From Bacteroides cellulosilyticus (GTDB lineage: Bacteria; Bacteroidota; Bacteroidia; Bacteroidales; Bacteroidaceae): a stretch of DNA of 64,000 nucleotides. A model generated the notes under the pieces. The model did no database searches. It had not been told where the DNA came from and worked only from the letters and a program-made list of their open reading frames with translations. The stretch's first letter is position 1. Each line of letters starts with the position of its first letter. The stretch covers positions 5,332,501-5,396,500 of the forward strand of contig NZ_CP081903.1 of the NCBI RefSeq assembly GCF_020091405.1, in the 5' to 3' direction. The translations under genes and the position numbers were made by a program. Positions 7,387-64,000 of this stretch are shown one piece after another.

Positions 7387-7395
7387 CTCATATTG

Positions 7396-7432
7396 AGCGT
7401 GCACCTTTCTTATAAGGTTTGCACGCTTTTTC
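7396..7432 (+). terminator. Rho-independent terminator after the DUF4139 gene
   Basis: AGCGTGCACCTT pairs with AAGGTTTGCACGCT (two bulged bases), followed by TTTTTCTTT, ten bases after the stop codon. Confidence 0.75.
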
Positions 7433-7541
7433 TTTGTTTCTTCCTCACTTTCTTTACTTTGTATTCACAAACATTACACTTGTGGTTCCTGTTCTCAGGA
7501 CTCACTTCGTAGTGTACAACTTTAAATGATAAAAGTGATGG

Positions 7542-7715
7542 TATCCTGCGGTGCATACCTATTCCAGCACCTTGCGGAATTTCAATAAGATGCTGGGAGT
7601 ACTGGCAAAACGTCTTTTGCCCGGCATCAAAATCAGTTCCTATACGGCCCGGCATGCATGAGCCACATTGGCTTATCATATGGGAATGCCTGTCGGCATC
7701 ATTTGCCAAGCGGTA
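7542..7715 (+). pseudogene. Remnant of a tyrosine recombinase C-terminal domain
   Basis: This frame translates to YSSTLRNFNKMLGVLAKRLL, then KISSYTARHA, a stop, ATLAYHMGMPVGIICQAV. This is the catalytic core of Bacteroidetes integrases around the Arg of the RHxW box and the helix before the final GH. The expected Trp after ARHA is a TGA stop, the GH after the CQA motif is lost, and neither the N-terminal part nor the catalytic Tyr can be found. It is therefore a decayed relic. Recombinases of this type often sit next to fimbrial or capsule loci in Bacteroides, which fits the fragment that follows. Confidence 0.7.
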
Positions 7716-7716
7716 A

Positions 7717-7935
7717 ATGCAGCGAATTTTCCACTGCATCCGTCGTTGCCTGCTTCTGTGGGGATTGCTGCCGTTTCTGTTTGGCTCATGTAGCTTCGGT
7801 GACGAACCTTCACCCTGTCTCTACGATATACGTCTGGAAGTGACGGTGTACGATGACAACCGGGTGGTAGTGACACAGGCTTCGGCTGCCGACTGGGAAG
7901 AAATTGAGACAAGAGATATAAACAACGTTCTTTGA
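7717..7935 (+). pseudogene. Short lipoprotein fragment, possibly a FimB/Mfa2-type fimbrial anchor N-terminus
   Basis: A 72-codon frame encodes a hydrophobic signal with lipobox-like LFGSC, then a Cys-containing segment PCLYDIRLEVTVYDD. This arrangement resembles the start of Mfa2/FimB-type fimbrial tip or anchor lipoproteins, which are normally about 300 residues. The frame stops just before the inverted repeat at 7937-7949. It could also be a free-standing small lipoprotein. The assignment is tentative and rests on the N-terminus only. Confidence 0.4.
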
Positions 7936-7936
7936 C

Positions 7937-7949
7937 ATATTGAGAGCTT
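7937..7949. repeat. 13-bp repeat, left flank of the AAA-ATPase gene
   Basis: ATATTGAGAGCTT occurs here and in exact inverted form (AAGCTCTCAATAT) at 9666-9678. A further near copy (AGATATTGGGAGCTT) lies at 9692-9706 in the same orientation as this one. Together they bracket the 8043-9614 gene and its promoter. Confidence 0.7.
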
Positions 7950-7990
7950 AAAAAGAAAAAGGAAGTTCCTGAGTTTTAAAAGTAAATCAG

Positions 7991-7999
7991 TATCTTTGC
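7991..7999 (+). promoter_or_regulatory. -7 promoter box for the AAA-ATPase gene
   Basis: TATCTTTGC matches the Bacteroides -7 consensus, 43 bases before the ATG at 8043. Confidence 0.6.
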
Positions 8000-8042
8000 A
8001 GATATTGATTCGCATGATATTAATATATAATACTTTAGATGT

Positions 8043-9614
8043 ATGGAAACAAATAATAATCATATACGGAAGTATCCCATCGGGATACAGAGCTTTGAAG
8101 ATCTGCGCCGCGAAGGTTACCTTTACGTGGACAAAACGGCGCTGATTTATCGACTGGTCACCACCGGTAAGCCCTATTTCCTTTCCCGTCCCCGTCGTTT
8201 CGGCAAGAGTCTGCTGCTTAGCACACTAAAAGCCTACTTTGAGGGTAAGAAAGAACTTTTCGAAGGTCTTGCCATCGAAAAGTTGGAAACAAAATGGACG
8301 GTGCATCCGGTGCTGCACCTTGACTTGAACGCCGAAAAATATGATTCGGTAGAACGATTAGAAATGCAGATGAACAGTCAGCTTCTGAACTGGGAATCGC
8401 AATATGGTTGTGATGCAGAGAATTGGTCTTACTCCATCCGCTTCATGAATGTGATAAAAGCAGCTTACGAACAGACCGGGCAGCAGGTAGTGGTACTTAT
8501 TGACGAGTATGACAAGCCGATGCTTGAGAGCCTACATGACAAGGAGTTACAGGATCAGTTCCGTAGCCTTCTTGTAGCTTTCTACAGTGTGCTGAAAACT
8601 GCCGACCCATTTCTGAGATTAGTTTTCATCACCGGCGTGACGAAGTTTGCCCAAATGAGCATCTTCTCCACTCTGAACCAGTTGATAGATATCAGCCTTG
8701 AGAAAAGCTACGAAGCCCTTTGCGGCATGACCCGCACTGAGATAGAGCAGAACTTCGCCCCTGAGCTGGAAGCTATGGCACTGAAAAACAGCACTTCCCG
8801 CGAAGCAATAGTGGAACGGATGAGGGCAATGTACGACGGCTACCACTTCTGTGAAGAGCAAACGGAAGGGATGTTCAATCCTTTCAGTGTACTCAACATG
8901 TTGCGGCAGTTGAAGTTCAATTACTACTGGTTCGCTACCGGCACCCCCACTTTTCTGGTAAAGATGTTGCAGCGCACTGAATTCGATGTGCGTGAACTGG
9001 TGAATGGTATTGAAGTTTCCGAAGCTTCTCTCATGAGCTACAGGGTTGATGACGACGATCCGGTTCCGATGATTTATCAGAGCGGTTATCTCACTATCAA
9101 GGGCTATGACCCGGAGTTTAACCTCTATAAGCTGAAACTTCCCAACGAGGAAGTGAAATATGGCTTGCTGAACTACATGGCTCCGTATTATACTCCGGTG
9201 ATGGAGCGTGATGTTCCTTTTTATGTGGGCAAATTTGTGAAAGAGCTTCGCGCAGGCGATGTGGATGCTTTCATGAACCGTATGCGCGCTTTCTTCGGAA
9301 ACATCTCATACGAACTGAGCGATGACACGGAACGGCATTATCAGAACGTATTTTATATTGTTTTCACCCTGTTGGGGCAATATACGGATGCAGAAGTGCG
9401 CAGTTGTCGTGGCCGGGCGGACATGGTGGTTAAAACTTCCGATTATATATACGTCTTCGAGTTCAAGCTAAACGGCACTGCCGAAGAAGCGCTGAAGCAG
9501 ATTGATGAAAAAGATTATCTTATTCCATATACCACAGACCACCGCAAGTTGGTGAAAGTAGGGGTTGACTTCAACAAGGATACCCGCAACATAGGTCGCT
9601 GGCTCGTTCAGTAG
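8043..9614 (+). CDS. AAA-ATPase-like protein with C-terminal PD-(D/E)XK nuclease domain (copy 1)
   Basis: A 523-residue protein of the AAA-ATPase-like/DUF1703 family. Residues 1-60 carry the family opening PIGIQSFEDLRREGYLYVDK and a Walker A-like RPRRFGKSLLLST; Walker B is VVVLIDEYDKP at about residues 150-160. The C-terminus has GRADMVV and, further on, FEFKL, giving the D...ExK catalytic set of PD-(D/E)XK nucleases, apparently intact. It is a paralogue of 50487-52049. The family is multicopy in gut Bacteroidales and its role is unknown; mobile-element or defence functions are speculation. It has its own promoter and is flanked by inverted repeats. Confidence 0.85.
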   Translation: METNNNHIRKYPIGIQSFEDLRREGYLYVDKTALIYRLVTTGKPYFLSRPRRFGKSLLLSTLKAYFEGKKELFEGLAIEKLETKWTVHPVLHLDLNAEKYDSVERLEMQMNSQLLNWESQYGCDAENWSYSIRFMNVIKAAYEQTGQQVVVLIDEYDKPMLESLHDKELQDQFRSLLVAFYSVLKTADPFLRLVFITGVTKFAQMSIFSTLNQLIDISLEKSYEALCGMTRTEIEQNFAPELEAMALKNSTSREAIVERMRAMYDGYHFCEEQTEGMFNPFSVLNMLRQLKFNYYWFATGTPTFLVKMLQRTEFDVRELVNGIEVSEASLMSYRVDDDDPVPMIYQSGYLTIKGYDPEFNLYKLKLPNEEVKYGLLNYMAPYYTPVMERDVPFYVGKFVKELRAGDVDAFMNRMRAFFGNISYELSDDTERHYQNVFYIVFTLLGQYTDAEVRSCRGRADMVVKTSDYIYVFEFKLNGTAEEALKQIDEKDYLIPYTTDHRKLVKVGVDFNKDTRNIGRWLVQ

Positions 9615-50424: not shown

Positions 50425-50443
50425 AAATTCCAATATGATATAT

Positions 50444-50486: not shown

Positions 50487-52049
50487 CTATTCCTCTACGA
50501 TAATATATTCATCAATATTCCGTGTTTCTTTGCTGAAATTCACCCCAACTTTCACCAGCCTCTTGCCATCCAACGTGTAAGGTATCAAATATCCCTTTTC
50601 TTCAATTTGTTTCAATGCAGCTTCAGCTGTACCGTCCAATTTGAACTCAAAAACATAGATGACGTGAGGGGTATGAACCACAGCATCGGCACGGCCGCGG
50701 CTACTACGCACTTCTGATTGGATGAATTGCCCCAGCAAAGTAAACACTACATGAAAAATAGCCTGATAATGACGTTCTGTATCATCACTCAACTCATACG
50801 GAATCCCTGCAAAGAATATCTTCAGACGTTCTACGAATGCCTCCACATCGCCACTCTTCAATTCACGCATAAACTTAGCAATATGAAAACCGGATTCATC
50901 ATTAGATACATTTGTATAGTAGGGCACCAGAAAATTCAGAAAACCATAACGGACTTCATCGTTTGGAAAACCTAAAGTATATAGCTTCACGTCATCATCA
51001 TACCCCTTAATAGTCAAATAACCACTTTGGTAAATCATTGGAAGGGGATTTCGCGATTCCGCACGATATTCAGAGAAAGCAGAAACTAACACTTCTACCC
51101 CATCTATCAATAAACGTATATCGTAATCGCTCTGCTTCAGCAAATCAACCAAATAAGTAGGAGTTCCGGTCTGAAACCAATAGTAACCCAATTCTTCCGC
51201 ATCGAATGCATTCAACACACTGAACGGATTGAACATCCCTGCACCTTCCGGATGAAAATGATAACCATCGTATTGGCATTCCATTAAATCAATCACTTCT
51301 TGCAACGATCTCCCTCTCCGTTTGGCAAGACGCTCCAGTTCCGGAAGAAAGGTCTGCTGCAACTCTTCTCGGGTAATGCCACACAGTGCTGCATAGGGAG
51401 ATTTCATACTGATATCATTCAGTTGATTCAAGTCACTGAACACGCTTACTTGGGCAAACTTTGTTACTCCGGTGAGGAAAACAAAACGAAGATAACGGTC
51501 TGCACTTTTCAAAACGCCATAGAATGCTTTCAATATTTTCCGATACTCATCCAGCAAACCCTCATCCAAGATGGCTTGAAGCAATGGTTTGTCATATTCA
51601 TCAATCAAGACAACCACTTGTTTTCCTGTCTGTATACATGCCTGCTCTATTATATAAGCAAAACGTTCTTCCGGACTACGATCTTTTTTCTCTGAACCAT
51701 AGAGTAATTCCCACTTTTCTAAATACTGATTAAGCATAGCTACCAAATCAGCAGCGGTCTCATATTTCCGGGCATTCAAGTCAAGATGTAGCACAGGATA
51801 TTGTTCCCATTTGGTTTCTAACTTTTCAATGGCTAAACCTTGGAACAAGTCTTTACGCCCTTGGAAATAAGCTTCAAAGGTAGAAAGAAGCAGGCTTTTG
51901 CCAAATCGACGCGGACGACTTAGGAAATAAGGAATAGAAGTAGATACTATTTGGTAAATCATAACCGTTTTATCTACATAAAGAAAATTCTCCTCACGCA
52001 GTTTATCAAAAGTTTGTATGCCTATCGGCAGTTTACGTATCTGTTCCAT
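50487..52049 (-). CDS. AAA-ATPase-like protein with C-terminal PD-(D/E)XK nuclease domain (copy 2)
   Basis: A 520-residue paralogue of 8043-9614, similar along its length (LPIGIQTFDKLREENFLYVDK; Walker A-like RPRRFGKSLLLST; Walker B VVVLIDEYDKPLL; C-terminal GRADAVV...FEFKLDGTAE with the D and ExK nuclease residues). It lies at the left edge of an accessory island, next to an HNH/ATPase pair. It is not flanked by the 13-bp repeats seen around copy 1. Its role is unknown; defence or phage-related functions are only suggested by the neighbours. Confidence 0.85.
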   Translation of the reverse strand: MEQIRKLPIGIQTFDKLREENFLYVDKTVMIYQIVSTSIPYFLSRPRRFGKSLLLSTFEAYFQGRKDLFQGLAIEKLETKWEQYPVLHLDLNARKYETAADLVAMLNQYLEKWELLYGSEKKDRSPEERFAYIIEQACIQTGKQVVVLIDEYDKPLLQAILDEGLLDEYRKILKAFYGVLKSADRYLRFVFLTGVTKFAQVSVFSDLNQLNDISMKSPYAALCGITREELQQTFLPELERLAKRRGRSLQEVIDLMECQYDGYHFHPEGAGMFNPFSVLNAFDAEELGYYWFQTGTPTYLVDLLKQSDYDIRLLIDGVEVLVSAFSEYRAESRNPLPMIYQSGYLTIKGYDDDVKLYTLGFPNDEVRYGFLNFLVPYYTNVSNDESGFHIAKFMRELKSGDVEAFVERLKIFFAGIPYELSDDTERHYQAIFHVVFTLLGQFIQSEVRSSRGRADAVVHTPHVIYVFEFKLDGTAEAALKQIEEKGYLIPYTLDGKRLVKVGVNFSKETRNIDEYIIVEE

Positions 52050-52339: not shown

Positions 52340-53263
52340 TTAGAGATTAGCCTGAGATTGTTCATACAAATCGACACTCAAGTCCCAATTCATATTAAAA
52401 ATCTGTGGAGAATGAGTACTTACAATACATTGCAAATTTCTCAATGCCATGATTGATTGCAGATTGGCTAAATAATCCACTTGCCACATCTGATGAAATG
52501 AAATTTCCGGTTCATCTATCAACACCAATGAGTCATCAGGAGCCATAAACAGCAATTCAAAAGCCATGATAAGCATTTGTTGCTCTCCGGAAGAGAGCTT
52601 GTCTACAGCAAGAATAGTACGTTCTTCATTATCGGCTATAAAACGATAACCATAACGCAGATCAATTTGCATTGTTTTATGGGCAAAAGCAGACTTTTCA
52701 ATAATATCACTGAATACTTTCAAGCGTTCGCGAAACGACTGATTCTCCGAATTTGCATTTTCCCTCAACAACTCTTTTAGTATATCTACATGTTTCCTCA
52801 CAGTAGGTACACCATCTGGAGTTTGCACACGGCCATCCCGAATATAATAAAGGGGATGGGAAGTAAAATATAAAGATAGTCCTAAATTCCCTAAATCTTC
52901 TTCACCGCCAGTATCCCACCTTATAGAATAGAGAGACCGCTCATTTCCGCTCTTTCTGAATTCTATATCCAAATGTACATTGGTTAACGATGATTCATCA
53001 GCATCCTCGTCAATAGTATAATCACGCAGCTGTGCTACAGTAACTTCATAACCATCATCAAACGTAAGCTGTAAATGCTTAAAAGGAATAACTGCCAGTT
53101 CACGTATTTTACCCGTGTATAACGCATTCAGAATGTTCAGGATCGTTGTTTTTCCATATCCGTTAGGTCCTGTTATAAAACGAAGAGGTACCTCGTCCGG
53201 CTTTATATCCAATGTATAGGAATAAATATCAAACAATGATTCTATAGAGATGGTTTTCAGCAT
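52340..53263 (-). CDS. Compact ABC/AAA-type ATPase of an HNH-ATPase pair
   Basis: A 307-residue ATPase of the AAA_15/AAA_21 type: Walker A in ITGPNGYGKTTILN (residues about 32-45), signature LSSGEQQMLIMAF (about 228-240), Walker B DSLVLIDEPEISFH and switch His in STHSPQIF. The coiled-coil arms of SMC or OLD proteins are missing, and no Toprim domain follows. I chose the ATG at 53263; it lies 2 bp after the HNH stop, so the two are one operon. ATPase + HNH is the composition of Septu (PtuA/PtuB), but gene order is reversed and both proteins are short. Confidence 0.85.
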   Translation of the reverse strand: MLKTISIESLFDIYSYTLDIKPDEVPLRFITGPNGYGKTTILNILNALYTGKIRELAVIPFKHLQLTFDDGYEVTVAQLRDYTIDEDADESSLTNVHLDIEFRKSGNERSLYSIRWDTGGEEDLGNLGLSLYFTSHPLYYIRDGRVQTPDGVPTVRKHVDILKELLRENANSENQSFRERLKVFSDIIEKSAFAHKTMQIDLRYGYRFIADNEERTILAVDKLSSGEQQMLIMAFELLFMAPDDSLVLIDEPEISFHQMWQVDYLANLQSIMALRNLQCIVSTHSPQIFNMNWDLSVDLYEQSQANL

Positions 53264-53265
53264 AT

Positions 53266-53622
53266 TCAAGCATTTTTATAAAGCTGCTTTAGTTTTTCAC
53301 GCAGTTTCTTATTAACAGTAAGATTTCGTTCATCCATAACGTTTTCCCGTCCATCATATTTCACAGACGCAGTATACGAAGGGTAATCACTGGCTTTACT
53401 TAGATTATTTTTATAGTGCAATGCCCTTAGATTCAGTAAATTATCATCACCGCCTAATGATATTGGTAGTATATGATCAATAACCCATCCGAAAGGATTA
53501 TTTTTCCCAAATTTATCCCACATAATCAATGCTCCGCAAGCATCTTTGCGAAACATGGAATCATCCAAACCATCCACAGAACGGGCCTTCTTCCACACCA
53601 ATAACTTTATATCTTCATCCAT
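53266..53622 (-). CDS. HNH endonuclease partner of the ATPase
   Basis: A 118-residue protein whose centre has the HNH fold: CGALIMWDKFG, VIDHILPISLGGDDNLLNL (catalytic His in IDH) and RALHYKNNLSKAS (final Asn/His positions). A basic C-terminus (VNKKLREKLKQLYKNA) may bind DNA. I chose the ATG at 53622, since the earlier one at 53646 overlaps the promoter box. Its single promoter also drives the ATPase gene. Such nucleases cut DNA or RNA in defence systems; the target here is unknown. Confidence 0.85.
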   Translation of the reverse strand: MDEDIKLLVWKKARSVDGLDDSMFRKDACGALIMWDKFGKNNPFGWVIDHILPISLGGDDNLLNLRALHYKNNLSKASDYPSYTASVKYDGRENVMDERNLTVNKKLREKLKQLYKNA

Positions 53623-53640
53623 TGCAGAACCTTCATGTTT

Positions 53641-53651
53641 GTGCAAAGATA
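53641..53651 (-). promoter_or_regulatory. -7 promoter box of the HNH-ATPase operon
   Basis: On the minus strand this reads TATCTTTGCAC. It lies 19 bases upstream of the ATG at 53622 and decides that start. Confidence 0.65.
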
Positions 53652-53977: not shown

Positions 53978-54031
53978 CGTTTTTTTAAACATTGCAAATA
54001 TCAGTTAATAAACAATCAATATATAAACCAA

Positions 54032-54441
54032 ATGGAAAGTATAAAAAAAATGAATGGCTAAAACGGTCTAGTCAAACAAATAAGACCTATAGTACTGTAA
54101 AGCAAAGAAATACAAGTAGAAAAGCAGTAAGTGATGTCAGCTTTATTGAGGAAGAATGGCTGGCGGAACGGAAATATTTCGGAATTAACACCTACGTATA
54201 CGTAGGCATCCTCAGAGCCTTCAAATTAGGAGCTTATAGAGGACTCGGAATCGAGACAATCAATGATTTAGCAGCACATTTATTTGCAAGTGGAGATATA
54301 TTAAAACAGGATAAAGGGAAAGATACCCCACTGAAATTAAGCAGTTTAAGGACAGAACTAAGTAAAGTGTGGGCAGTGATAAAAATGGAAGATACGGAAA
54401 ACATAGATCCTTATGGATATGACGTGACATTAAATCCATAA
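54032..54441 (+). CDS. Unknown protein, possibly expressed by -1 frameshift at an A8 run
   Basis: The only ATG after the promoter (54032) starts a frame that ends after nine codons (TAA at 54059-54061). A -1 shift on the run of eight A (54043-54050) joins it to a long frame ending at 54441. The joint product, about 136 residues, starts MESIKKNEWLKRSS and contains FIEEEWLAERKYFGINTYVY and ELSKVWAVIK. The long frame has no ATG of its own before its conserved-looking part, only a TTG at 53992. Either programmed slippage, an alternative start or a mutation explains this. I do not recognise the family. It precedes the VirE module. Confidence 0.5.
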
Positions 54442-54494
54442 TAGTTCATTCCAAAGAAAGAGGCGACCTTTGCACGAAATTTAAAAACAACGCA

Positions 54495-55124
54495 ATGGAA
54501 AACTCTTTTAGAATGTCGCTATTCATGCCCCCTATCTCTCCGATAAAGGACAAAGCAACCGGAAGGATCGTGAAAAATGCCACGCTGACCCCACTACGCA
54601 CAGTGGAACTCAGCGAAGTATACAAGTTGGTCACTTCAAACGCGAAACTTGCCGCACTCACTCTCGATGTACGAAACGCCGTACAGCAGGGTGACGACAG
54701 TGTCTGCCGCCTATTGAAGCAGCAGACACTGCCTTACGTGACCCCGTGCGGAGTCTTCACCCGACGCAGGAGCGACTGTATAGAAGAAACGTCCGGACTC
54801 GTAGTAGTGGACGTAGACCATCTCGAATCCAACGAGGAAGCCAAAAAGCTGCGCCAACTATTATTCGAAGATCCCTATCTACACCCGGTGTTAGTGTTCA
54901 TCAGTCCCACCGGAAAGGGCGTGAAAGCCTTCGTGCCCTGCGCACCCGGACAAAGCGCCACAGATGGAATCCGCTGGGCAATGAGCTATGTACACTGCAT
55001 GTACGACACCGACCACCGGAATTCGGGTAAAGGAGTGGATACCTCAGGAAAAGACCTCGTACGCTCCTGTTTCCTGTGCCATGACCCGGAAGCGTTGATA
55101 AGAACTGAAAATGACAACAAATAA
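54495..55124 (+). CDS. VirE N-terminal domain protein (BT4734/BF3469 type)
   Basis: A 209-residue protein with the VirE-N/prim-pol-like pattern: CGVFTRRRSDCIEETSGLVVVDVDHL with the acidic pair DVDH (about residue 110), HPVLVFISPTGKGVKAFVPC and GVDTSGKDLVRSCFLCHDPEA. These residues resemble primase-polymerase domains found at the start of replication proteins of mobile elements. It begins an operon with the DUF3987 gene. In Bacteroides such genes are found with HU and amidase genes, often near capsule loci; their role is not known. Confidence 0.85.
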   Translation: MENSFRMSLFMPPISPIKDKATGRIVKNATLTPLRTVELSEVYKLVTSNAKLAALTLDVRNAVQQGDDSVCRLLKQQTLPYVTPCGVFTRRRSDCIEETSGLVVVDVDHLESNEEAKKLRQLLFEDPYLHPVLVFISPTGKGVKAFVPCAPGQSATDGIRWAMSYVHCMYDTDHRNSGKGVDTSGKDLVRSCFLCHDPEALIRTENDNK

Positions 55125-55158
55125 ATTACAAATTACGAATTACAAATTACAAAAACCA

Positions 55159-56967
55159 ATGGAACCACTATCTTCATTGCACCTCCTGACCGAAGCCGTC
55201 AGAAATGCGGGAGCAGACATCGCTCCCAGTTATCAAGAGTATATACAACTGGCCTTTGCCATCGCCACCGACTGCGGCGAGGCGGGGCGTCAGGATTTTC
55301 TCGCCCTGTGCAGCCTCTCATCAAAGTATGACCATCAGGCAGCAGAAAAACTATTCAGCAACGCCCTGAAAAACGGACACAACGACGTACACATAGGCAC
55401 CGCCTTCCATCTGGCAGAGCTGTGCGGCGTGAAAATCGAATATGAAAATCCAGGCACCGTTGGTACAGTTGGTACAGAAGTCCGCCCCCCTTCTGGCACA
55501 CACACACGCGCACGCGTGAAAGAGGTGTACTCACAAGAGAAAAATGACTTCTCTTGTGAAGAAGAGACTTCGCCGGGCAGCGCTCCGCTGTCTCCTCTGC
55601 CCACTTTCGACAAGAACATCCGGTGGCCTTATCCTCTGGAACGCATCATGAGTTGCGCCACCTCCGATGCCCAGAGCGACGTCCTGTTGCTGGGAACACT
55701 CAACGTACTGGGAGCCACCATGGGACCGCACGTCCGGTGCGCATACGGAGGAAAGATGATATCGCCCTGCATGCAGACTTTCACTTCGGCCAACTCCGCA
55801 TCCGGAAAAGGAGTCCTGTCGCTGGTACGCCTGCTGGTAGAACCTTTTCACGATGAGATACGCAAGCAGGTGGCAGAAAGAATGGCATGCTACCAACGCG
55901 ACAAGGCAAAGTACGACGCACTGGGAAAAGAACGGGCGAAAGCTGAGGTTCCGACACTGCCGCCCAACAAAATGTTCCTCATCCCAGGAAACAACACGGG
56001 AACGGGCATCCTGCAAAATCTGATGGACTCTGATGGCATCGGACTGATATGCGAAAACGAAGCCGACACCATATCCTCCGCCATCGGCTCGGACTACGGA
56101 CACTGGAGCGATACCCTGCGAAAGGCTTTCGACCATGAACGGGTGGACTACAACCGACGCACCGACAGGGAATACCGGGAAGTAAAAAAAACGTATCTCT
56201 CAGTACTCATATCCGGCACTCCCTCACAAGTGAAGTCACTGATACCTACTGCCGAAAACGGGCTTTTCTCACGACAGATTTTCTACTACATGCCCTCCAT
56301 ACGACAATGGCAAAACCAGTTCGACCGAAACGACCGGAATTTGGAAGAACCCTTCACCAAGATGGGGGTGGAATGGAAAGAAAAGCTGAAAAACATCTAT
56401 ATGGGAGGAATTTTCACCCTACACCTCTCCGACGGCCAGAAAGAGGAATTCAACCGGCTGTTCTCCCAACTCTTCACCCGCTCCGAACTGACAAACGGCA
56501 GCGAAATGTCGGGCAGCGTGGCACGTCTGGCTATCAACATCTGCCGCATCATGGAAGTGGTGGCCATGCTGCGTATGCTTGAAAGTGGAGATATAGCCAC
56601 GTCACCACACCTTTCGCCCGATCCCGGCACTTCTGCCGATAATCTGAAAGACCACATCGTAAGCTTATGGGACCTCGACATCACTGAAGATGATTTCCAC
56701 GCCGTGCTGTCGATGGCCGAATGTCTATATCGCCACGCCACCCATATCCTTTCCTTCCTGCCCGCCACCGAAGTAACCCGTCGGGGCAATGCCGACCGGG
56801 ACGCACTGGTGCAGTGCATGAAAAAGAGATTTACACGGATTGAATTCCTGCAAAAGGCTGAAGAGATGGGCATAAAAAACGCCACCGCTTCAACTTGGCT
56901 GAAACGAATGCTGAAAAACGGGCTGGTGGAGAATATGGATGGAAAAGGAACTTATCAAAAGCCCTGA
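55159..56967 (+). CDS. DUF3987 (VirE-associated, primase/helicase-like) protein
   Basis: A protein of about 600 residues. Residues 1-110 are the primase-C-terminal-like helical domain (YIQLAFAIATDCGEAGRQDF). A low-complexity linker (GTVGTVGTEVRPPSGTHTR) follows, then DUF3987 with Walker A-like SANSASGKGVLS (about residues 215-226 of the long frame), LICENEADT and DHERVDYNRRTDREY. An upstream ATG (55111) would overlap the VirE-N gene, but its first 16 codons come from an ATTAC-rich repeat tract, so I prefer 55159. The linker DNA is one arm of a long inverted repeat whose other arm is at 57034-57081. Confidence 0.82.
   Translation: MEPLSSLHLLTEAVRNAGADIAPSYQEYIQLAFAIATDCGEAGRQDFLALCSLSSKYDHQAAEKLFSNALKNGHNDVHIGTAFHLAELCGVKIEYENPGTVGTVGTEVRPPSGTHTRARVKEVYSQEKNDFSCEEETSPGSAPLSPLPTFDKNIRWPYPLERIMSCATSDAQSDVLLLGTLNVLGATMGPHVRCAYGGKMISPCMQTFTSANSASGKGVLSLVRLLVEPFHDEIRKQVAERMACYQRDKAKYDALGKERAKAEVPTLPPNKMFLIPGNNTGTGILQNLMDSDGIGLICENEADTISSAIGSDYGHWSDTLRKAFDHERVDYNRRTDREYREVKKTYLSVLISGTPSQVKSLIPTAENGLFSRQIFYYMPSIRQWQNQFDRNDRNLEEPFTKMGVEWKEKLKNIYMGGIFTLHLSDGQKEEFNRLFSQLFTRSELTNGSEMSGSVARLAINICRIMEVVAMLRMLESGDIATSPHLSPDPGTSADNLKDHIVSLWDLDITEDDFHAVLSMAECLYRHATHILSFLPATEVTRRGNADRDALVQCMKKRFTRIEFLQKAEEMGIKNATASTWLKRMLKNGLVENMDGKGTYQKP
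55460..55507 (+). repeat. Left arm of a two-block inverted repeat, inside the DUF3987 gene
   Basis: Block 1 (55460-55481, 22 bp) and block 2 (55491-55507, 17 bp) are separated by 9 bases. Both occur as exact reverse complements at 57060-57081 and 57034-57050, again separated by 9 bases. An 8-bp block GCGCACGC follows on the outer side in both arms. Confidence 0.9.
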
Positions 56968-56992
56968 TATAACTTATCAAAAACCTTGATAT
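56949..56992 (+). repeat. 22-bp tandem duplication at the DUF3987 stop
   Basis: AACTTATCAAAAGCCCTGATAT is followed directly by AACTTATCAAAAACCTTGATAT, with two differences. The first copy encodes the last codons and stop. Confidence 0.8.
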
Positions 56993-57033
56993 AACAACGT
57001 GCGCTATAATATAAAACGCATGCGTGCGCACGT

Positions 57034-57081
57034 GTGTGTGTGTGCCAGAAGACCGATGAACTTCTGTACCAACTGTACCAA
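57034..57081 (-). repeat. Right arm of the two-block inverted repeat
   Basis: Reverse complement of the two blocks in the DUF3987 gene, placed about 70 bases after its stop. Its GT-rich part (57031-57044) is a short dinucleotide run. Confidence 0.9.
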
Positions 57082-57179
57082 TCCCCCGTTCTCCTTTGCG
57101 CTGCCCAACCTCACCTTTACACCGCTCAAGTCAACCTCTACTACACTCAAGCTCACCTTTACGATGTCCAAGCGTAGCC

Positions 57180-57398
57180 TCAGGGTTCCCCCAGTGCGCC
57201 TACTATCAGGCTCACCTGGGCGGGCGTGTAAGAGCGTGAACGGGGAGAAAGCCCCAGGGCGGACAGACCGTCACGCAAACCGGGATAAAGATCAATCCAA
57301 TGTTTCAACTTACGGTAAGCAGCCTCCGGACAGAGATCGGGACAATAGAGTTGGGCTAATTCTGTACGCCCATAGGTACGGATTTCAAAAGAGTTCAT
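57180..57398 (-). CDS. DUF4248 family protein
   Basis: A 72-residue protein starting MNSFEIRTYGRTELAQLY and ending SYTPAQVSLIVGALGEP, the typical size and ends of DUF4248. Inside are LCPEAAYRKLKHWIDLYP and ALGLSPRSR. I chose the ATG at 57398, which matches the family's usual start, over that at 57428. DUF4248 genes are nearly always found opposite or next to VirE-N/DUF3987 and HU genes in Bacteroides, as here. It may be a small DNA-binding regulator; no function is established. Confidence 0.85.
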   Translation of the reverse strand: MNSFEIRTYGRTELAQLYCPDLCPEAAYRKLKHWIDLYPGLRDGLSALGLSPRSRSYTPAQVSLIVGALGEP

Positions 57399-57540
57399 AT
57401 CTGATATTCCTGTGTTATATTTCATCAAAGATAGACATAAATCATGACATTATCAAAGATATATATGTAAATAACAGACTAAAACAGACCTAAATCGACT
57501 CTAAGAGTCCGAAAGTGACAAACGCCTATACCCTCAGTAT

Positions 57541-57548
57541 TACCTTTG
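57541..57548 (+). promoter_or_regulatory. -7 promoter box for the HU gene
   Basis: TACCTTTG followed by CAC, 70 bases before the ATG at 57619. Confidence 0.55.
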
Positions 57549-57618
57549 CACAGTTGAGTTCAACATCGTGAATCTTTTAAATTATAATTGTTTAATCATT
57601 TAAATTATCTATCAAACT

Positions 57619-58098
57619 ATGATTCGTTACAAAAAGTATCAAGTGACGGGCGAAAACAGCCCGCTGAAAGGTCTCTGGTATGCGCGTCCCGTAATTGAAG
57701 AGACTTTCGACATTGAGAGACTTGCCAAACACATGTCCAACCACAATACTCCCTACTCGAGTGGTGTCATCAAGGGAGTGTTGACAGACATGGTTTCCTG
57801 CACCAAGGAACTGATTCTGGATGGCAAGAATGTAAAAATGGATGATCTGGCAATTTTCTCCGTAGGGATTGTCAGCCAAAAAGGCGCAAAATCTGCCGCC
57901 GACTTCTCATTGGCTAATAACGTAAAGGGGTTGAAACTCCGCGCCCGTGCCACGGGTGAGCTGAGCAATGCTCAGATTAATCTGGAAGGGCAAATGAAGG
58001 AGGCTTCCATGTACACCGTGGAAGGCAGCTCATCCGGCAACACTCCCGGCGGTGGTTCCGGAGGAGGCGGTGGGCTCGATGAAAATCCATTGGGATAA
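57619..58098 (+). CDS. HU-family DNA-binding protein with Gly-rich tail
   Basis: A 159-residue HU-like protein of the Bacteroides type (MIRYKKYQVTGENSPLKGLWYARP; GVIKGVLTDMVSCTKELILDGKNVKMDDLAIFSVGI). The HU fold covers about residues 1-125, with the DNA-binding arm region near GAKSAADFS. A flexible tail of SSSGNTPGGGSGGGGG ends in DENPLG. It is distinct from housekeeping HU (about 90 residues). It belongs to the VirE/DUF4248/small peptide/amidase module, with the peptide gene 44 bp downstream. Confidence 0.88.
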   Translation: MIRYKKYQVTGENSPLKGLWYARPVIEETFDIERLAKHMSNHNTPYSSGVIKGVLTDMVSCTKELILDGKNVKMDDLAIFSVGIVSQKGAKSAADFSLANNVKGLKLRARATGELSNAQINLEGQMKEASMYTVEGSSSGNTPGGGSGGGGGLDENPLG

Positions 58099-58142
58099 CC
58101 CCCGCATTCGCATAAATCATAAACTATAAATCTTTATCTCTC

Positions 58143-58250
58143 ATGAACGAAGAAAGAAGGTCAAAAAACGTATGGGGCATTGTCCTCAAAGTAATCATCA
58201 CCGTAGCCACCGCCATTGCGGGAGCTTTAGGGTTAGGCGCCTGCCAGTAG
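58143..58250 (+). CDS. Small membrane peptide of the 'smalltalk' type
   Basis: A 35-residue peptide: a charged start MNEERRSKNVWG, one hydrophobic helix (IVLKVIITVATAIAGALG) and a short LGACQ end. Peptides of this size and pattern are annotated as smalltalk protein in Bacteroides and lie between HU and amidase genes, as here. The amidase ATG follows after 2 bases. The hydrophobic helix suggests a membrane role, perhaps holin-like; this is speculation. Confidence 0.8.
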   Translation: MNEERRSKNVWGIVLKVIITVATAIAGALGLGACQ

Positions 58251-58252
58251 AC

Positions 58253-58666
58253 ATGCGCACGATTACCCTACTCATTATTCATTGCTCGGCCACGCCTCAG
58301 GGCGTGGACCTGAGCTTCGAGGATTGCCGCCGCGACCACATTCGCCACCGCAGCTTCAGTGACATCGGCTACCATTTCTACGTGACTCGTGACGGTGAGA
58401 TTCACCGTGGCCGCCCACCGGAAAAAGTTGGTGCGCATTGCCTCAATCATAATCGGCACTCCATCGGTATCTGTTATGAAGGAGGTTTGGATGCCGACAG
58501 TCAGCCATCCGACACTCGCACCTTAGAGCAAAAAGCTTCGCTGCTTGCACTGCTGCGCGAACTGAAGCGCATCTTTCCACACGCTCTGATTGTGGGTCAT
58601 CATGATCTGAATCCCATGAAACCTTGTCCTTGCTTCAATGCGGAAAGGGAATATAGGGGGCTGTAA
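58253..58666 (+). CDS. N-acetylmuramoyl-L-alanine amidase (amidase_2, T7 lysozyme-like)
   Basis: A 137-residue zinc amidase. Motifs: LLIIHCSATPQG (zinc His at about residue 10), SDIGYHFYVTRDGEIHRGRP, GAHCLNHNRHSIGICYEGG and VGHHDLNPMKPCPCFNA (second zinc His and catalytic Cys region). It cleaves the bond between MurNAc and L-Ala in peptidoglycan, as phage endolysins do. There is no signal peptide, so export would need a holin-like helper; the peptide encoded just upstream is a candidate. I chose the ATG at 58253 over the frame opening at 58172, which overlaps the peptide gene. Confidence 0.9.
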   Translation: MRTITLLIIHCSATPQGVDLSFEDCRRDHIRHRSFSDIGYHFYVTRDGEIHRGRPPEKVGAHCLNHNRHSIGICYEGGLDADSQPSDTRTLEQKASLLALLRELKRIFPHALIVGHHDLNPMKPCPCFNAEREYRGL

Positions 58667-58721
58667 AGTCCCCTATATGCTTATTTCAGAGAAATGAGTT
58701 CTACAGAAAACAACCCATTTC

Positions 58722-58753
58722 TTTGGCTTTGAACTTGATAGTTGTTACCTTTG
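58722..58753 (+). promoter_or_regulatory. Promoter of the DUF262 operon
   Basis: TTTG (58722-58725), a 20-base spacer and TACCTTTG (58746-58753). The TTG at 58742 lies inside it, so translation starts at the ATG at 58778. Confidence 0.65.
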
Positions 58754-58777
58754 TTCACAAGAATCCATAGTGATAAA

Positions 58778-59893
58778 ATGAAAGAGCAAGAAGAACTGTT
58801 AGAAAGTGAGTCCGGGTTGGACATGGAAGAAAACAACTCGTCGACTATTTATCCCAACGCGGAAGTACGGGTGGAAAAAGCACAATTTAGCATTTTGCAC
58901 CTGCGACGCCTATGTGTGGAACGAAAAGAAATCATCATTTCCCCCGATTTTCAAAGAAATGACGTCTGGAAAGGAAGACAAACATCCGAATTAATAGAAT
59001 CGATATTAATGGGAATACCCATTCCCATTATGTACCTATTTGAAACCAGAGAAGGAAAGAAACAAGTGGTAGACGGGCGGCAACGCATTGACACAATATT
59101 AAGGTTCTTGGACAATGGATTCAGACTGAAAGATTTAAAAATATTGCATAGCCTAAACGGCTCCCTTTTCAAAGAACTGGATCCCAAACTACAAGGCATA
59201 TTTGAAGACTACCAGTTATTTTTTTATATCATACAGCCCCCAACCCCGGAACGCGTAAAATATGATATCTTTGATAGAGTGAACCGAGGTGGGACACGAT
59301 TGAACAATCAAGAAATGCGCAACGCCCTATACAGGGGTAACGCCACATTCCTCATTGATGATATCTGCATATCAGACGAATTCAAAAAAGCAACGGGAGA
59401 AGGCGTAAGTTCCATCCGAATGCGGGACAGATATATTGTGCTGCGGGCTATAGCTTTTTATTTACTCATGACCAACCAATTACAAACAGCAGATTTAGGT
59501 AAACCAATCGAGTATAGAAGTGATATTGATGATTTTCTCGCCAAAGTGATGATATTTATGAATCAACGCATGTCGCAGGAAGAAATAGAGAAACTAAAAG
59601 AGAAATTCCTGACTGCATTAAAGAAAATCTATTCATTACTGGGTGAGGACGCATTCCGGTTTGCCGGCATAAACAAACGCCGACCGATAAATATGCCGCT
59701 GTTTGAATGCCTTACCTATCTATTTTTGCTTGAATGGGATTGGAATGATGATAAGGAAATCTATTGGAGCATAGAAGATCTGAAAGATTCACTGGATAAA
59801 AGCGGCTCTTTTCAGGGAAATGTGGATTCCATTGCCAGTTTAGGGTATAGATACTCACGTATAAATCAATTCTTTAAAGGTCTACAACAATGA
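58778..59893 (+). CDS. DUF262 (GmrSD-N/ParB-like) protein of a three-gene operon
   Basis: A 371-residue protein. Residues 45-230 form a DUF262 domain: PDFQRNDVWKGRQTSELIES, then the ParB-like core VVDGRQRIDTI (about residues 106-116) and FDRVNRGGTRLNNQEMRNAL. In GmrSD and related systems this domain hydrolyses NTP and directs a nuclease against modified phage DNA. The C-terminal DUF1524 HNH nuclease of full GmrSD is absent here; the rest is helical. It overlaps the ATPase gene by 4 bp (ATGA), so effector activity may come from the partners. Confidence 0.88.
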   Translation: MKEQEELLESESGLDMEENNSSTIYPNAEVRVEKAQFSILHLRRLCVERKEIIISPDFQRNDVWKGRQTSELIESILMGIPIPIMYLFETREGKKQVVDGRQRIDTILRFLDNGFRLKDLKILHSLNGSLFKELDPKLQGIFEDYQLFFYIIQPPTPERVKYDIFDRVNRGGTRLNNQEMRNALYRGNATFLIDDICISDEFKKATGEGVSSIRMRDRYIVLRAIAFYLLMTNQLQTADLGKPIEYRSDIDDFLAKVMIFMNQRMSQEEIEKLKEKFLTALKKIYSLLGEDAFRFAGINKRRPINMPLFECLTYLFLLEWDWNDDKEIYWSIEDLKDSLDKSGSFQGNVDSIASLGYRYSRINQFFKGLQQ

Positions 59894-60903
59894 TACAGAA
59901 AGTAATAATTAGTGGGTTAAAAAATATCAAGCGTGAAGAAATGACGTTGAAACCATTAACGTTATTGACCGGTTTAAACTCAACAGGGAAATCAAGTGTG
60001 TTGCAAGCTATCTTATTAGTTAACAAGGCTACCACGAAGAATGGCCAAATCTATTTGAACCATGTACTTTCTTCTTTCTCCACCCTTAGAAACATATATG
60101 AAAATGCAAAAGAAGTTTTCATCAGTTTGGAAATAAACGAAAACTGCATAGATTATAAATTATCAGAAGAAATAGAAGAAGTAGAAGAGAAAGGTGAGGG
60201 ATATACCGGATTGGAAATAGAAAAAAATCTCTATTATCTGTCAGCTAATCGTGTTGGTGCAGAGAACTTAGCCCAAATCTCTTCTGCAATTTTCTGCGGT
60301 ATTAACGGAGACTATTTATTAGGCACTTTTGAAAAGGAAAAGTCGAAACCTTTGCCTGAACCTTTGATAAAAGATGAAAGCTCCTTTACGTTAGCAGCCC
60401 AACTCAACTACTGGCAAAGTTATATATTAGGTTTGAAACTTGAGTTGAAAACAGAAAAGCGTAACGATCAGATAGTTGAAGTAAAATATAATAGCGACAA
60501 TATTCCGGGAATTCTTCCCACGCAATTAGGAGCCGGTGTAAGTTATCTGACTAAAGTGCTTATTCTTTGTTTAAGAGCTGCCCCAGGAGATGTAGTAATG
60601 ATTGAGAACCCAGAAATACATCTTCATCCTGCCGCCCAATCACGTTTAGGAGAATTTTTCGCTTTTATAGCTAATGCCGATATTCAGCTGATTATAGAAA
60701 CTCATTGTGATCATTTAATAAATAAATTGCAGTATCTGGTGTTCAAGAAGAAATTTGAATCTGACAAGGCAATTATATATTATAAAAAAGGAATTGTAGA
60801 CCCGTTTGAGAAAATTCAGTTGAACAAATATGGACGTTTTGAACCAGAATTTCCTGATGGTTTCTTTGATGCCACATTAGCCGAACTTATAGAGATGGAA
60901 TAA
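59890..60903 (+). CDS. AAA ATPase of the DUF3696 type
   Basis: A 337-residue ABC-like ATPase: Walker A GLNSTGKSSVLQ (about residues 28-39), ABC-signature-like GAGVSYLTKVLILCL, Walker B VVMIENPEIHLHP (about 237-249) and switch His in IIETHCDHLINKLQ. The C-terminus with IVDPFEKIQLNKYGRFEPEFPDGFFD matches DUF3696, a cap common in defence-associated OLD-like ATPases. It has no Toprim or nuclease domain. Two-way coupling (4-bp overlap upstream, 1 bp gap downstream) places it in the centre of the three-gene unit. Confidence 0.88.
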   Translation: MIQKVIISGLKNIKREEMTLKPLTLLTGLNSTGKSSVLQAILLVNKATTKNGQIYLNHVLSSFSTLRNIYENAKEVFISLEINENCIDYKLSEEIEEVEEKGEGYTGLEIEKNLYYLSANRVGAENLAQISSAIFCGINGDYLLGTFEKEKSKPLPEPLIKDESSFTLAAQLNYWQSYILGLKLELKTEKRNDQIVEVKYNSDNIPGILPTQLGAGVSYLTKVLILCLRAAPGDVVMIENPEIHLHPAAQSRLGEFFAFIANADIQLIIETHCDHLINKLQYLVFKKKFESDKAIIYYKKGIVDPFEKIQLNKYGRFEPEFPDGFFDATLAELIEME

Positions 60904-60904
60904 A

Positions 60905-61609
60905 ATGGGAAACTACAGTTTTGTATTGAGTGATGAATTGCAAAAAGAATATTGCAATTTCAAAGAAGGAAAAGTGTGTGACAGAAATCTAATTGAGAAT
61001 CTTCTGCATTACTACAAACCTTCCATACTGACAAATACCAGTCAGTTAAAAAGAATTGGTAAGGATACCAGCAAACAATTGGAAACGACATTAAGGAAAA
61101 GTGGTTTTACAACACAGTCACTCGAAGATTTAGCTCAAAATACAACCTATAAAATAATATTGTGCACTGACAAAGACCATTATCCTTACGTAAACATCAA
61201 TGGAGATAAAATAGAAAATAACCTAACAGCTTGTTTTTTCAAAAGAGAAAATAGGCAAAAAGCAATAGAACATATTACCGCTTTATGCAGAAAAGCGAAG
61301 AATATTTCTATTTATGATAAATATTCTTTTCTGAATGGAGCAAACATCGAACTACTAAAAAGCATTCTTCCTTTAAAAGAATTGTCCATAACCTACGATT
61401 CACAATATATAAATGTAGTGGCATTACAGGAATATTGTGCAAAATGGACATTTATAGACCGTACATTGCCCGAATATCACGATCGCTATCTGGTAGTAGA
61501 CGATAAAATAGAAATCATATTAACCAGTGGATTTGACTATCTGATTAGAAATGAAAAAGAATTCACTTATATCGTTCGCCCTGTTTCAAGACAACGTTTT
61601 CTGATGTAA
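60905..61609 (+). CDS. Unknown protein with C-terminal phospholipase-D-like half site
   Basis: A 234-residue protein with no secretion signal. The N-terminal half is helical and unrecognised. From about residue 115 it resembles the PLD-like domain seen in MITD1-type and defence proteins: CFFKRENRQKAIEHI, ISIYDKYSF, then HDRYLVVDDKIEIILTSGFD, where H-x-R-x4-D (about residues 192-199) stands for the HKD motif with Arg for Lys. One half site would need a dimer for nuclease or lipase activity. It starts 1 bp after the ATPase stop and ends the operon. Confidence 0.75.
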   Translation: MGNYSFVLSDELQKEYCNFKEGKVCDRNLIENLLHYYKPSILTNTSQLKRIGKDTSKQLETTLRKSGFTTQSLEDLAQNTTYKIILCTDKDHYPYVNINGDKIENNLTACFFKRENRQKAIEHITALCRKAKNISIYDKYSFLNGANIELLKSILPLKELSITYDSQYINVVALQEYCAKWTFIDRTLPEYHDRYLVVDDKIEIILTSGFDYLIRNEKEFTYIVRPVSRQRFLM

Positions 61610-61684
61610 GGAGGAAAGATAGTTAGCTTGGAGATATTTTAAAGAATACCTCCAAGCCCCCAGAAAAACTAAAATAACAATCTG

Positions 61685-62779
61685 TTACCCTCGCATCAGC
61701 AATTCCGGGAATGTAAATCCTTGCATGGTATAGCAGATAAAGAAGATGGTAGCACTAACAATCCACAGAATAAGCAATGTCCATTTCAACCCGGAAACCA
61801 TGGGCTGCCAATTGAATACCGGACGGAAGATTGCGAAAACAAGGCTAACCAGAGGAATACCCACTACGAGGATACCTGCAATATATAGTACGATGGCTGA
61901 CAAAGGAGATGTAGGTAATACAAAATCAATAGCCGGGAACCAAGACATCAACGCTGCACCACCACCAATAGCAACTGCAATAGCGGCAAAGAGCAAAGCC
62001 ACAAATACAATACCGAAAACAAACAGTACCGGACTGCAAATGATAGCCACAATAACCAGACAAATCTTCAGGAACCAGCCGACAATCATTAACAACGTAT
62101 CACCGGTCCTTTGCATAGAAGTACGAGGTTTATCAGACTTCATATAATCGTTTACATTATTTGAAACTCTCTCAAAACCATCAGTTACAGTCTTTCCAAT
62201 GTTCTCTACCGTAACAGCTTCGCCGCGCATATTCAACTTTTCAGTCGCCGTACGAGCTTCGGGAATCACTATCCAGCAAATGATATAGATAGGGATCAAG
62301 AACTTGAAACCAAAGATTGCGCAAAAAACAAGAATCAAACGGAACCAGGTAGAATCCCAGCCTAAATAAACACTAAGTCCCCCTATCACGCCACCCAGCA
62401 TTTTATCGTCCGGATTGCGATACAAACGGCGACGGGTTGAAGTATAAGAAGAATTAGTATCACTATTCCAAGAGCCGGAACCATAACCTTCACCGGAAGC
62501 AGCATTCTCCTCCGTACCAGTTTCCATCTCTTCAGGTTTACCCATCCGATTGATTACTTCTTCTGCATCGGTTATAGTGATCACCTGAGAGCCAGCAGTC
62601 AGCTTCTCTGAAAAAAGTTCAGAGATGCGGAGTTCGATGTCATTTACAATCTCGTCAGCACCGGCTTGTCGTCTAAAGTGCAGTTTCAGATTGCATAGAT
62701 AGTTATCCAAAAGGCGATAGGCGTCTTCATCAATGTGGAAAACAGTTCCGCCCAGATTTACTGTTAATGTCTTTTTCAT
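61685..62779 (-). CDS. PspC-domain envelope stress membrane protein
   Basis: A 364-residue protein. Residues 1-80 are a cytoplasmic region (MKKTLTVNLGGTVFHIDEDAY; EVINRMGKPEEME), about 115-175 a PspC domain (RRRLYRNPDDKMLGGVIGGLSVYLGWD; LIPIYIICWIVIPEA), and the rest has five to six helices ending near WTLLILWIVSATIFFICY. PspC-type proteins respond to membrane stress. The gene follows a PadR repressor gene by 52 bp; this pair is common in Bacteroidetes and the repressor probably controls both. Confidence 0.88.
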   Translation of the reverse strand: MKKTLTVNLGGTVFHIDEDAYRLLDNYLCNLKLHFRRQAGADEIVNDIELRISELFSEKLTAGSQVITITDAEEVINRMGKPEEMETGTEENAASGEGYGSGSWNSDTNSSYTSTRRRLYRNPDDKMLGGVIGGLSVYLGWDSTWFRLILVFCAIFGFKFLIPIYIICWIVIPEARTATEKLNMRGEAVTVENIGKTVTDGFERVSNNVNDYMKSDKPRTSMQRTGDTLLMIVGWFLKICLVIVAIICSPVLFVFGIVFVALLFAAIAVAIGGGAALMSWFPAIDFVLPTSPLSAIVLYIAGILVVGIPLVSLVFAIFRPVFNWQPMVSGLKWTLLILWIVSATIFFICYTMQGFTFPELLMRG

Positions 62780-62831
62780 TGCTATTCGTTTTTTAAATTT
62801 ATACTGATACGAGGTTTTTAATATCCTGAAT

Positions 62832-63158
62832 CTAATAGTTGGCTATATGATTCACTGTTTCATTCAACTCACGCCAGGAGATTTCCAACTCTCCAAGAAA
62901 AACTTCCCCTTTTGGGGTGAGCTTGTAATATTTACGTGGCGGTCCTTGTGTGGACTCTATCCATTCGTAACTTAACAGATCGTCATTCTTCAGACGAGTG
63001 AGCAAGGGGTAAAGCGTTCCTTCCACTACGATTAGCTTGGCTTCTTTAAGTTTCTGGATAATATCCGAAGCGTAGGCCGGTTCTTTGTGAAGCAGTAGCA
63101 TGATGCAATACTCTAACATGCCCTTACGCATTTGCGACTTTACATTATTTACGTCCAT
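62832..63158 (-). CDS. PadR-family transcriptional regulator
   Basis: A 108-residue winged-helix regulator with the PadR pattern: MRKGMLEYCIMLLLHKEPAYASDIIQKL, LIVVEGTLYPLLTRLKNDDLLSYEW and GPPRKYYKLTPKGEVFL. The short length is that of subfamily 2 without the long C-terminal dimerisation helix bundle. It is the first gene of the leftward operon with the PspC gene, with its own promoter at 63198-63206, and is probably autoregulated. Confidence 0.9.
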   Translation of the reverse strand: MDVNNVKSQMRKGMLEYCIMLLLHKEPAYASDIIQKLKEAKLIVVEGTLYPLLTRLKNDDLLSYEWIESTQGPPRKYYKLTPKGEVFLGELEISWRELNETVNHIANY

Positions 63159-63197
63159 CTCTTATTGGTTTACGATTCGACAATTTTCTATTTTACA

Positions 63198-63206
63198 GCA
63201 AAGATA
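63198..63206 (-). promoter_or_regulatory. -7 promoter box of the padR-pspC operon
   Basis: On the minus strand this reads TATCTTTGC, 39 bases before the ATG at 63158. Confidence 0.6.
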
Positions 63207-63370
63207 GCAACTGATTGAAATAGAGCTTTTCTTTGTATGACACAAATATATGCATTATCTTAGTACTATGCAATACAAAGTACCTTGCATTTTATTTAAT
63301 TAACACTATTATCTATTCACACCTTATTAATAAAGCGTCAGGGGAGAGAATAACATATAAGAGAAAAATG

Positions 63371-63379
63371 TATCTTTGC
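63371..63379 (+). promoter_or_regulatory. -7 promoter box for the GNAT gene
   Basis: TATCTTTGC, 25 bases before the ATG at 63405. Confidence 0.6.
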
Positions 63380-63404
63380 GGAAAAGATATAAATACAACG
63401 AACT

Positions 63405-63905
63405 ATGTTAACTATCAGAAAAGCAACTACAGCCGATTGTGAGTTGATCCATAAACTTGCATGGCAGATATTTCCGGAGACTTACAAGGATATACTTTCA
63501 CCGGAGCAAAACGATTATATGATGGAATGGATGTACTCCATAGAGAACATCCGCAAGCAAATGGAAGAAGAAGGGCATGTATATTTCATTGGATACAAGG
63601 ACAACGAAGTGTGTGGTTATGTATCTGTGCAACAACAAGGTGAAGACCTATTCCATTTACAGAAAATATATGTACTCCCCTCCTTTCAAGGATCACATTG
63701 CGGTAGCTTCTTATTCCATGAAGCCGTCAAATATATCAAGGAAGTACATCCCGGCCCATGCTTGATGGAATTAAATGTGAACCGCAACAACAAAGCGCTG
63801 AATTTCTATGAACGCATGGGGATGAGAAAATTGAGGGAAGGGGATTTTCCGATAGGGAACGGATATTATATGAATGACTTTATAATGGGGCTGGAAATCA
63901 ATTAG
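63405..63905 (+). CDS. GNAT-family N-acetyltransferase
   Basis: A 166-residue acetyltransferase: TIRKATTADCELIHKLAW at the start, VCGYVSVQQQGEDLFHLQKIYVLPSFQGSHCGSFLF with the acetyl-CoA loop Q/R-x-x-G (QGSHCG, about residues 100-105), and LNVNRNNKALNFYERMGM near the end. The acceptor is unknown. It is transcribed alone, with a promoter box upstream and a large palindromic terminator downstream. Confidence 0.9.
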   Translation: MLTIRKATTADCELIHKLAWQIFPETYKDILSPEQNDYMMEWMYSIENIRKQMEEEGHVYFIGYKDNEVCGYVSVQQQGEDLFHLQKIYVLPSFQGSHCGSFLFHEAVKYIKEVHPGPCLMELNVNRNNKALNFYERMGMRKLREGDFPIGNGYYMNDFIMGLEIN

Positions 63906-63984
63906 AAATTAAAAAAATTAAAGGCTGCGCAGTTCAAAAGAGAACCTTGCGCAGCCTTTATCTTTTTAATTTTCAATTTCTAAT
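63901..63984 (+). terminator. Terminator within a long palindrome after the GNAT gene
   Basis: The inner stem AAAGGCTGCGCA/TGCGCAGCCTTT (63920-63931 with 63948-63959) is followed by a T-rich tail. Outer arms ATTAGAAATT (63901-63910) and AATTTCTAAT (63975-63984) extend the palindrome and start at the stop codon. Confidence 0.8.
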
Positions 63985-64000
63985 TATTCCGTTACTCGTT

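Follow-up and report, generated by a model that had tools for sequence, protein, structure and literature searches.

A probable Menshen anti-phage operon with a PLD-like third protein in a variable chromosomal slot of Bacteroides cellulosilyticus

Bacteroides cellulosilyticus (order Bacteroidales) carries, within a stretch of 64,000 nucleotides (contig NZ_CP081903.1, positions 5,332,501 to 5,396,500 of the forward strand; the whole of it is called the window below), a three-gene operon that very probably is a Menshen anti-phage system with all its components, of the kind whose third protein, NsnC, has a tail resembling phospholipase D (PLD). The genes nsnA, nsnB and nsnC (Table 1) span positions 58778-61609 on the + strand and, according to the open reading frame listing and the translations, are tightly coupled: nsnA and nsnB overlap by 4 bp and a gap of 1 bp separates nsnB from nsnC, as the initial annotation of this DNA had described. 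That annotation also spoke of one promoter, and a promoter-like site upstream of nsnA, assigned by the Bacteroides promoter consensus, makes a single promoter for all three genes plausible, although the site is a pattern match and the loose pattern occurs eight times (6 on the + strand and 2 on the - strand) within the 64 kb. An Rfam scan of positions 57000-64000 found no family at gathering score. The length of NsnA is counted from the ATG at 58778; the listed open frame begins at an upstream TTG.

Table 1. Features of the operon (positions in the window)
Feature	Position	Strand	Description	Basis
promoter-like site	58722..58753	+	Bacteroides-type TTTG-N20-TACCTTTG, 24 bp upstream of the start of nsnA	pattern match
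nsnA	58778..59893	+	DUF262/GmrSD_N (ParB/Srx-like) protein, 371 aa	PADLOC NsnA, Pfam GmrSD_N, DGRQR
nsnB	59890..60903	+	ABC/OLD-type ATPase, 337 aa, Walker A and Walker-B-like motifs	PADLOC NsnB, Pfam AAA_15/AAA_21, motifs
nsnC	60905..61609	+	probable effector, 234 aa; PLD-like C-terminal half at about residues 106-234	PADLOC NsnC, AlphaFold2, PLD-fold matches

All three genes match, in order and at nearly full length, the PADLOC models of Menshen: NsnA at 2.3e-102 (protein residues 9-368, profile positions 25-381 of 385), NsnB at 9.3e-80 (profile 1-343 of 345) and NsnC at 3e-74 (model PDLC03880, profile 3-241 of 242). The initial annotation had recognized a probable defense operon, which these matches bear out, and had proposed it as a candidate undescribed system; the latter proposal fails because existing models of a named system match all three genes, and the three-gene system is thus already known. 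Its reading of the individual proteins fared better. The first was described as a ParB-like DUF262 protein lacking an HNH end, and NsnA scores 88.7 bits with Pfam GmrSD_N (DUF262), contains a DGRQR motif at residues 99-103 that is kept in 38/38 aligned sequences, and by its sequence appears to lack an HNH domain (no Pfam match to HNH or DUF1524, no DHx[YF][PA] pattern). The second, described as an OLD-like ATPase without Toprim, matches Pfam AAA_15/AAA_21 and contains the motifs GLNSTGKS, VMIENPE and ETH, and no Toprim match was found by Pfam in any of the three proteins; the further label “DUF3696-type” is marginal, as the score of 16.0 bits lies below the cut-off of 22, although one Campylobacter homologue is annotated as DUF3696. 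Menshen was named by Millman et al. 2022 (as cited in PMC10952713), and a review reports both its anti-phage activity and the loss of protection when its DUF262 gene is mutated or deleted (PMC10952713). According to a 2026 review, how Menshen works is still unknown (PMC12926258).

NsnC matches no Pfam family above cut-off. In its predicted structure (AlphaFold2 model, predicted local distance difference test score 91.9) the C-terminal half folds like the PLD proteins NucT, Zucchini and SauUSI and also like MITD1. This is the outcome of the structure search that had been suggested for the third protein, and the single HxRx4D half site reported earlier is likewise present, as HDRYLVVD at residues 192-199, with Arg in place of the Lys of the catalytic HxKx4D motif. 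The His, Arg and Asp of this triad are intact in 60/62 aligned NsnC homologues. Three further residues of the window protein, His123 (61/62), Arg117 and Asp138 (62/62 each), are conserved as strongly as the triad. A second H-x-[KR]-x4-D pattern is found in 17 of the 120 NsnC homologues listed and begins at residues 120-124 in 14 of these; because residues 120-124 sit in a predicted helix in the window protein, we do not read the pattern as a second PLD site. A variant of the HKD site with Arg for Lys (HRD) has been described in BrxL fusions, where the authors judge it probably active (PMC12839542); the same article cites a 2025 paper on polymorphism of Menshen domains (gkaf357) in a sentence on BrxL proteins that end in an HKD nuclease.

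The search for the same gene order elsewhere, proposed with the initial annotation, was successful. In Bacteroides acidifaciens nsnA, nsnB and nsnC follow one another at positions 5880-6992, 6992-7999 and 8001-8705 of the locus examined (L002), and in G140, a genome that belongs to a different family within the order, the three genes follow one another with the identical 4-bp overlap and 1-bp gap. Among plasmids, 27 records match NsnC; three were examined, two from Campylobacter and one from Klebsiella, and the order is kept in all three, the Klebsiella operon adjoining ABC-three-component (ABC-3C) genes and a retron. The best PADLOC matches are again NsnA, NsnB and NsnC for the B. acidifaciens locus, the Klebsiella plasmid and one Campylobacter plasmid. 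The recurrence of the order and of similar tight junctions in distant relatives speaks against a chance association. The window type of NsnC was seldom found among the genomes searched: besides the genome under study it was found in 1 of 60 relatives (G009, B. acidifaciens), and it is matched over the full profile in 2 of 393 genomes of the order, the genome under study included. Phage records gave no match, and of the viral contigs 47 stretches fit a pattern, none of which was confirmed.

The other NsnC matches are of a different kind. In the order-wide search, where 1 of 14 control genomes matched (Sulfolobus acidocaldarius), 22 of the 24 matching genomes did so over part of the profile only, at E 1e-3 to 1e-6. 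Thirteen such loci were examined, and of the eight readable proteins seven appeared by eye to be RhuM/ORF6N-like and one (L027) another PLD-like protein; none was counted as Menshen. The RhuM/ORF6N-like proteins (L016, L017, L019, L024, L028, L029 and L032, judged by eye, with Pfam for L016 and L019) have only an HDRxxxxD tail in common with NsnC. Four weak matches (E 1.7e-4 to 8.5e-4) were considered as possible fusions, one in the order (G045) and three in the genus (G029, G008, G004); those of G045, G029 and G004 look by eye like sugar-nucleotide dehydratases or epimerases with no NsnA or NsnB neighbors in the stretches examined, and were judged to be chance. At another locus (L040, 1215-3498, in G052) an NsnB-like ATPase of 457 aa adjoins a MIT_C/PLD-like protein of 223 aa; the 4 kb examined contain no DUF262 gene.

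Homologues of NsnA greatly outnumber those of window-type NsnC. At E 0.001 they number 3624 proteins for NsnA, a count that must include other DUF262 proteins, and 146 for window-type NsnC; at 1e-40 NsnA matches 46 of the 393 genomes at 61 places (1 of 14 control genomes matched, Bacteroides ihuae). We examined 40 of these places, mostly the better-scoring ones, the window and G140 accounting for two more of the 61. An NsnB neighbor comes next after NsnA in 32 of the 40, in one case as a fragment cut off by the end of a contig; it was not seen in the other eight, seven of which (L142-L148) have no NsnB that we could find and one of which lies at a contig end. A same-strand third gene starting within 60 bp is present at 29 of the 40 places, one of them cut by a contig end, and against these 29 (28 complete) the window NsnC gave no phmmer match at E 0.001. 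Four of the 28 complete third genes carry Pfam YoeB_toxin. When the third proteins were scanned with PADLOC together with the window NsnC (29 members), 16 matched the NsnC model PDLC03879, the window protein not being among them, and the best 25 of 33 families comprised 23 NsnC models and two CARF_DUF2103 models. Up to 5 of these 29 scanned proteins (alignment A2) also match CARF7--CARF_DUF2103 models (best 1.5e-11), perhaps through a shared toxin tail. The varied matches indicate that the third slot holds several types of protein, and in the present sample PLD-type proteins are in the minority. When profiles of the window NsnC and of two large groups of other third genes were compared by hhalign, no similarity emerged (probabilities 0.3 and 0.2 per cent), and a shared N-terminal adaptor is therefore not supported by sequence. 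Computationally, the strongest argument for the third gene as the effector is that proteins with toxin tails take its place in other operons. The genome under study itself holds a second Menshen operon about 90 kb past the window (L109, G000:C1:5484000-5496000), with an NsnA of 456 aa, an NsnB of 381 aa and an NsnC of 262 aa that is of another type (PDLC03912, 1.8e-50).

An arrangement of DUF262 protein, ATPase and YoeB has been described under the name ptuXYZ (PMC11980606), an article in which the word Menshen occurs 0 times. One locus of this make-up in our sample (L110, 3699-6786, in G408) matches the NsnA model at 1.8e-136 and the NsnB model at 4.1e-110, with an NsnC model matching over the N-terminal 188 residues of its third protein. 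Since this locus matches the NsnA and NsnB models, ptuXYZ looks like a branch of Menshen; the comparison, which was made by make-up through L110, suggests that ptuXYZ may be the YoeB-tailed branch under a second name and that the two would form one family.

How the operon might act can be proposed from these observations. The initial annotation had named the PLD-like protein as the effector, and the PLD fold of the model, the triad intact in nearly all homologues and the YoeB-tailed proteins that stand in its place elsewhere make NsnC a likely PLD-like effector with putative nuclease activity. In the mechanism that we consider rather probable, NsnA (a ParB/Srx-like NTPase) and NsnB (an ABC-type ATPase) would form a sensor-regulator that keeps NsnC inactive; phage infection would cause a nucleotide-dependent rearrangement, and two NsnC half-sites, brought together in a dimer, would join as one PLD active site and cut nucleic acid, with the result that phage DNA is destroyed or the infected cell dies. 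MITD1-like domains are non-catalytic and fit the fold of NsnC equally well, and because of this the fold is compatible with phage DNA, host nucleic acid or membranes as the target. The PLD-like half of NsnC might accordingly be, as in MITD1, a non-catalytic module that binds membranes or nucleic acid, with the damage done by other means such as membrane disruption or NsnA. We regard this as unlikely, since the conserved His, Arg and Asp would be needless in a purely structural domain; moreover NucT, Zucchini and SauUSI match NsnC about as well, and the HRD variant of the BrxL fusions is judged probably active (PMC12839542).

Menshen could instead act as a type IV, GmrSD-like restriction system in which NsnA reads modified DNA and the NsnC nuclease replaces HNH, a proposal that draws on the GmrSD_N domain with its DGRQR motif and no HNH match, and on the PLD fold of NsnC, whose matches include the PLD-type, ATP-dependent restriction endonuclease SauUSI. 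The YoeB toxin tails of sister third genes do not fit a family-wide mechanism of DNA restriction, and we hold this possibility, too, to be improbable. A broader scheme, which we offer tentatively and as speculation, is that NsnA-NsnB serves as a general platform for sensing infection, its third gene being swapped wholesale among effectors without detectable homology; ptuXYZ would then be the same platform, and the PLD-type NsnC, with Arg fixed for Lys, would act by an unusual chemistry or would even be a MITD1-like membrane effector and no nuclease. Far less probable than any of these is that the operon is a new three-gene defense system that merely resembles Menshen. The near-zero hhalign probabilities between the window NsnC and the two large third-gene groups would fit that idea, as would the Toprim/OLD domain that a review assigns to one Menshen component (PMC10952713) and that was not found in the operon. 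The model PDLC03880, however, fits this type of NsnC end to end and stands beside other NsnC models for other types, and NsnA and NsnB match their models strongly, so that the idea is refuted as long as PDLC03880 is rightly assigned to Menshen; as the NsnB model has only 345 positions and is covered end to end, we do not treat Toprim as a defining feature of Menshen.

The Menshen operon is accessory and occupies a variable slot, as the initial annotation had supposed in placing it in accessory DNA. The flank from 61624 on, which holds genes for PspC and PadR, is conserved in those three relatives whose PspC resembles that of the window most closely (98-99 % identity), and at this site the operon is absent from all three (G437, G447 and G432); genome-wide, none of them gave a match to NsnA (at E 1e-20) or to NsnC (at E 0.001). 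In G437, window position 58713, after an amidase gene, joins 61624 through 373 bp instead of 2910 bp. In G432 the core runs from window position 50425 through an acyltransferase-like gene to 61624. The slot of G447 contains an acyltransferase-like gene (by eye) and, between it and the amidase gene, a relic of nsnB (L072, 16675-16785): 111 bp that are 97.3 % identical to window positions 60803-60912, the tail of nsnB. This relic is the trace of a lost Menshen operon, and the locus is a clear instance of a chromosomal slot at which an operon has come and gone. The B. acidifaciens operon lies at a different site, beside an Rnf-type cluster (by eye), and adjoins a DUF3987-HU-amidase module similar to the one found in the window.

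That module, with BT4734-like, DUF3987, HU-HIG and amidase genes, occupies positions 53992-58666 of the window, next to the operon. Further upstream, on the - strand at 52340-53646, a PtuA/AriA-like ATPase of 309 aa and an HNH-like protein of 126 aa form a Septu-like pair, the HNH matches of which fall just below the Pfam cut-offs; no similar DNA was found in the compared stretches of the three close relatives. An AAA-ATPase_like and PDDEXK_9 protein is encoded at 50487-52049 (- strand) and has a relative in the G437 stretch; as that stretch also aligns to window positions 8076-9530, the window seems to hold a second gene of this type.

Overall, one false candidate is struck from the list of undescribed systems, and Bacteroides gains a well-supported case of a Menshen operon whose NsnC is of the PLD type; were this effector to be characterized, the way in which NsnA-NsnB licenses different effectors could be approached directly. 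With Menshen as described, the window operon shares the NsnA, NsnB and NsnC model matches in the same order, adjacent and co-directional; it differs in that its NsnC is of the PLD type (PDLC03880), which none of the other 28 complete third genes examined resembles, and in having no Toprim match, against the Toprim that the review ascribes to one component (PMC10952713). The match of NsnA to PD-T4-2_A of PD-T4-2 (1.5e-33) is far weaker than that to the NsnA model, and the two genes that follow match NsnB and NsnC. GmrSD, BrxU and SspE have in common with the window NsnA the DUF262 (GmrSD_N) domain with its DG(Q/R)QR nucleotide motif (PMC10952713); the window operon has no DUF1524/HNH match and encodes two further, separate proteins, an ABC-type ATPase and a PLD-like one. 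In OLD-family nucleases (OLD, Gabija GajA) the ATPase is fused to a C-terminal Toprim, whereas the 337-aa product of the second gene has ATPase-type matches only. In ptuXYZ, a DUF262 gene without HNH, a P-loop ATPase and a two-domain toxin follow one another in the same order as in the window, with a third protein that ends in a YoeB/BECR RNase fold where the window NsnC has a PLD domain (PMC11980606). Finally, residues 106-234 of NsnC share the PLD-like fold of NucT, Zucchini and SauUSI, and its motif has Arg for Lys, as reported for the BrxL-HKD fusions (PMC12839542); from these PLD nucleases and BrxL-HRD fusions alike NsnC is set apart by an N-terminal part of its own (residues 1-105) and by its partners NsnA and NsnB.
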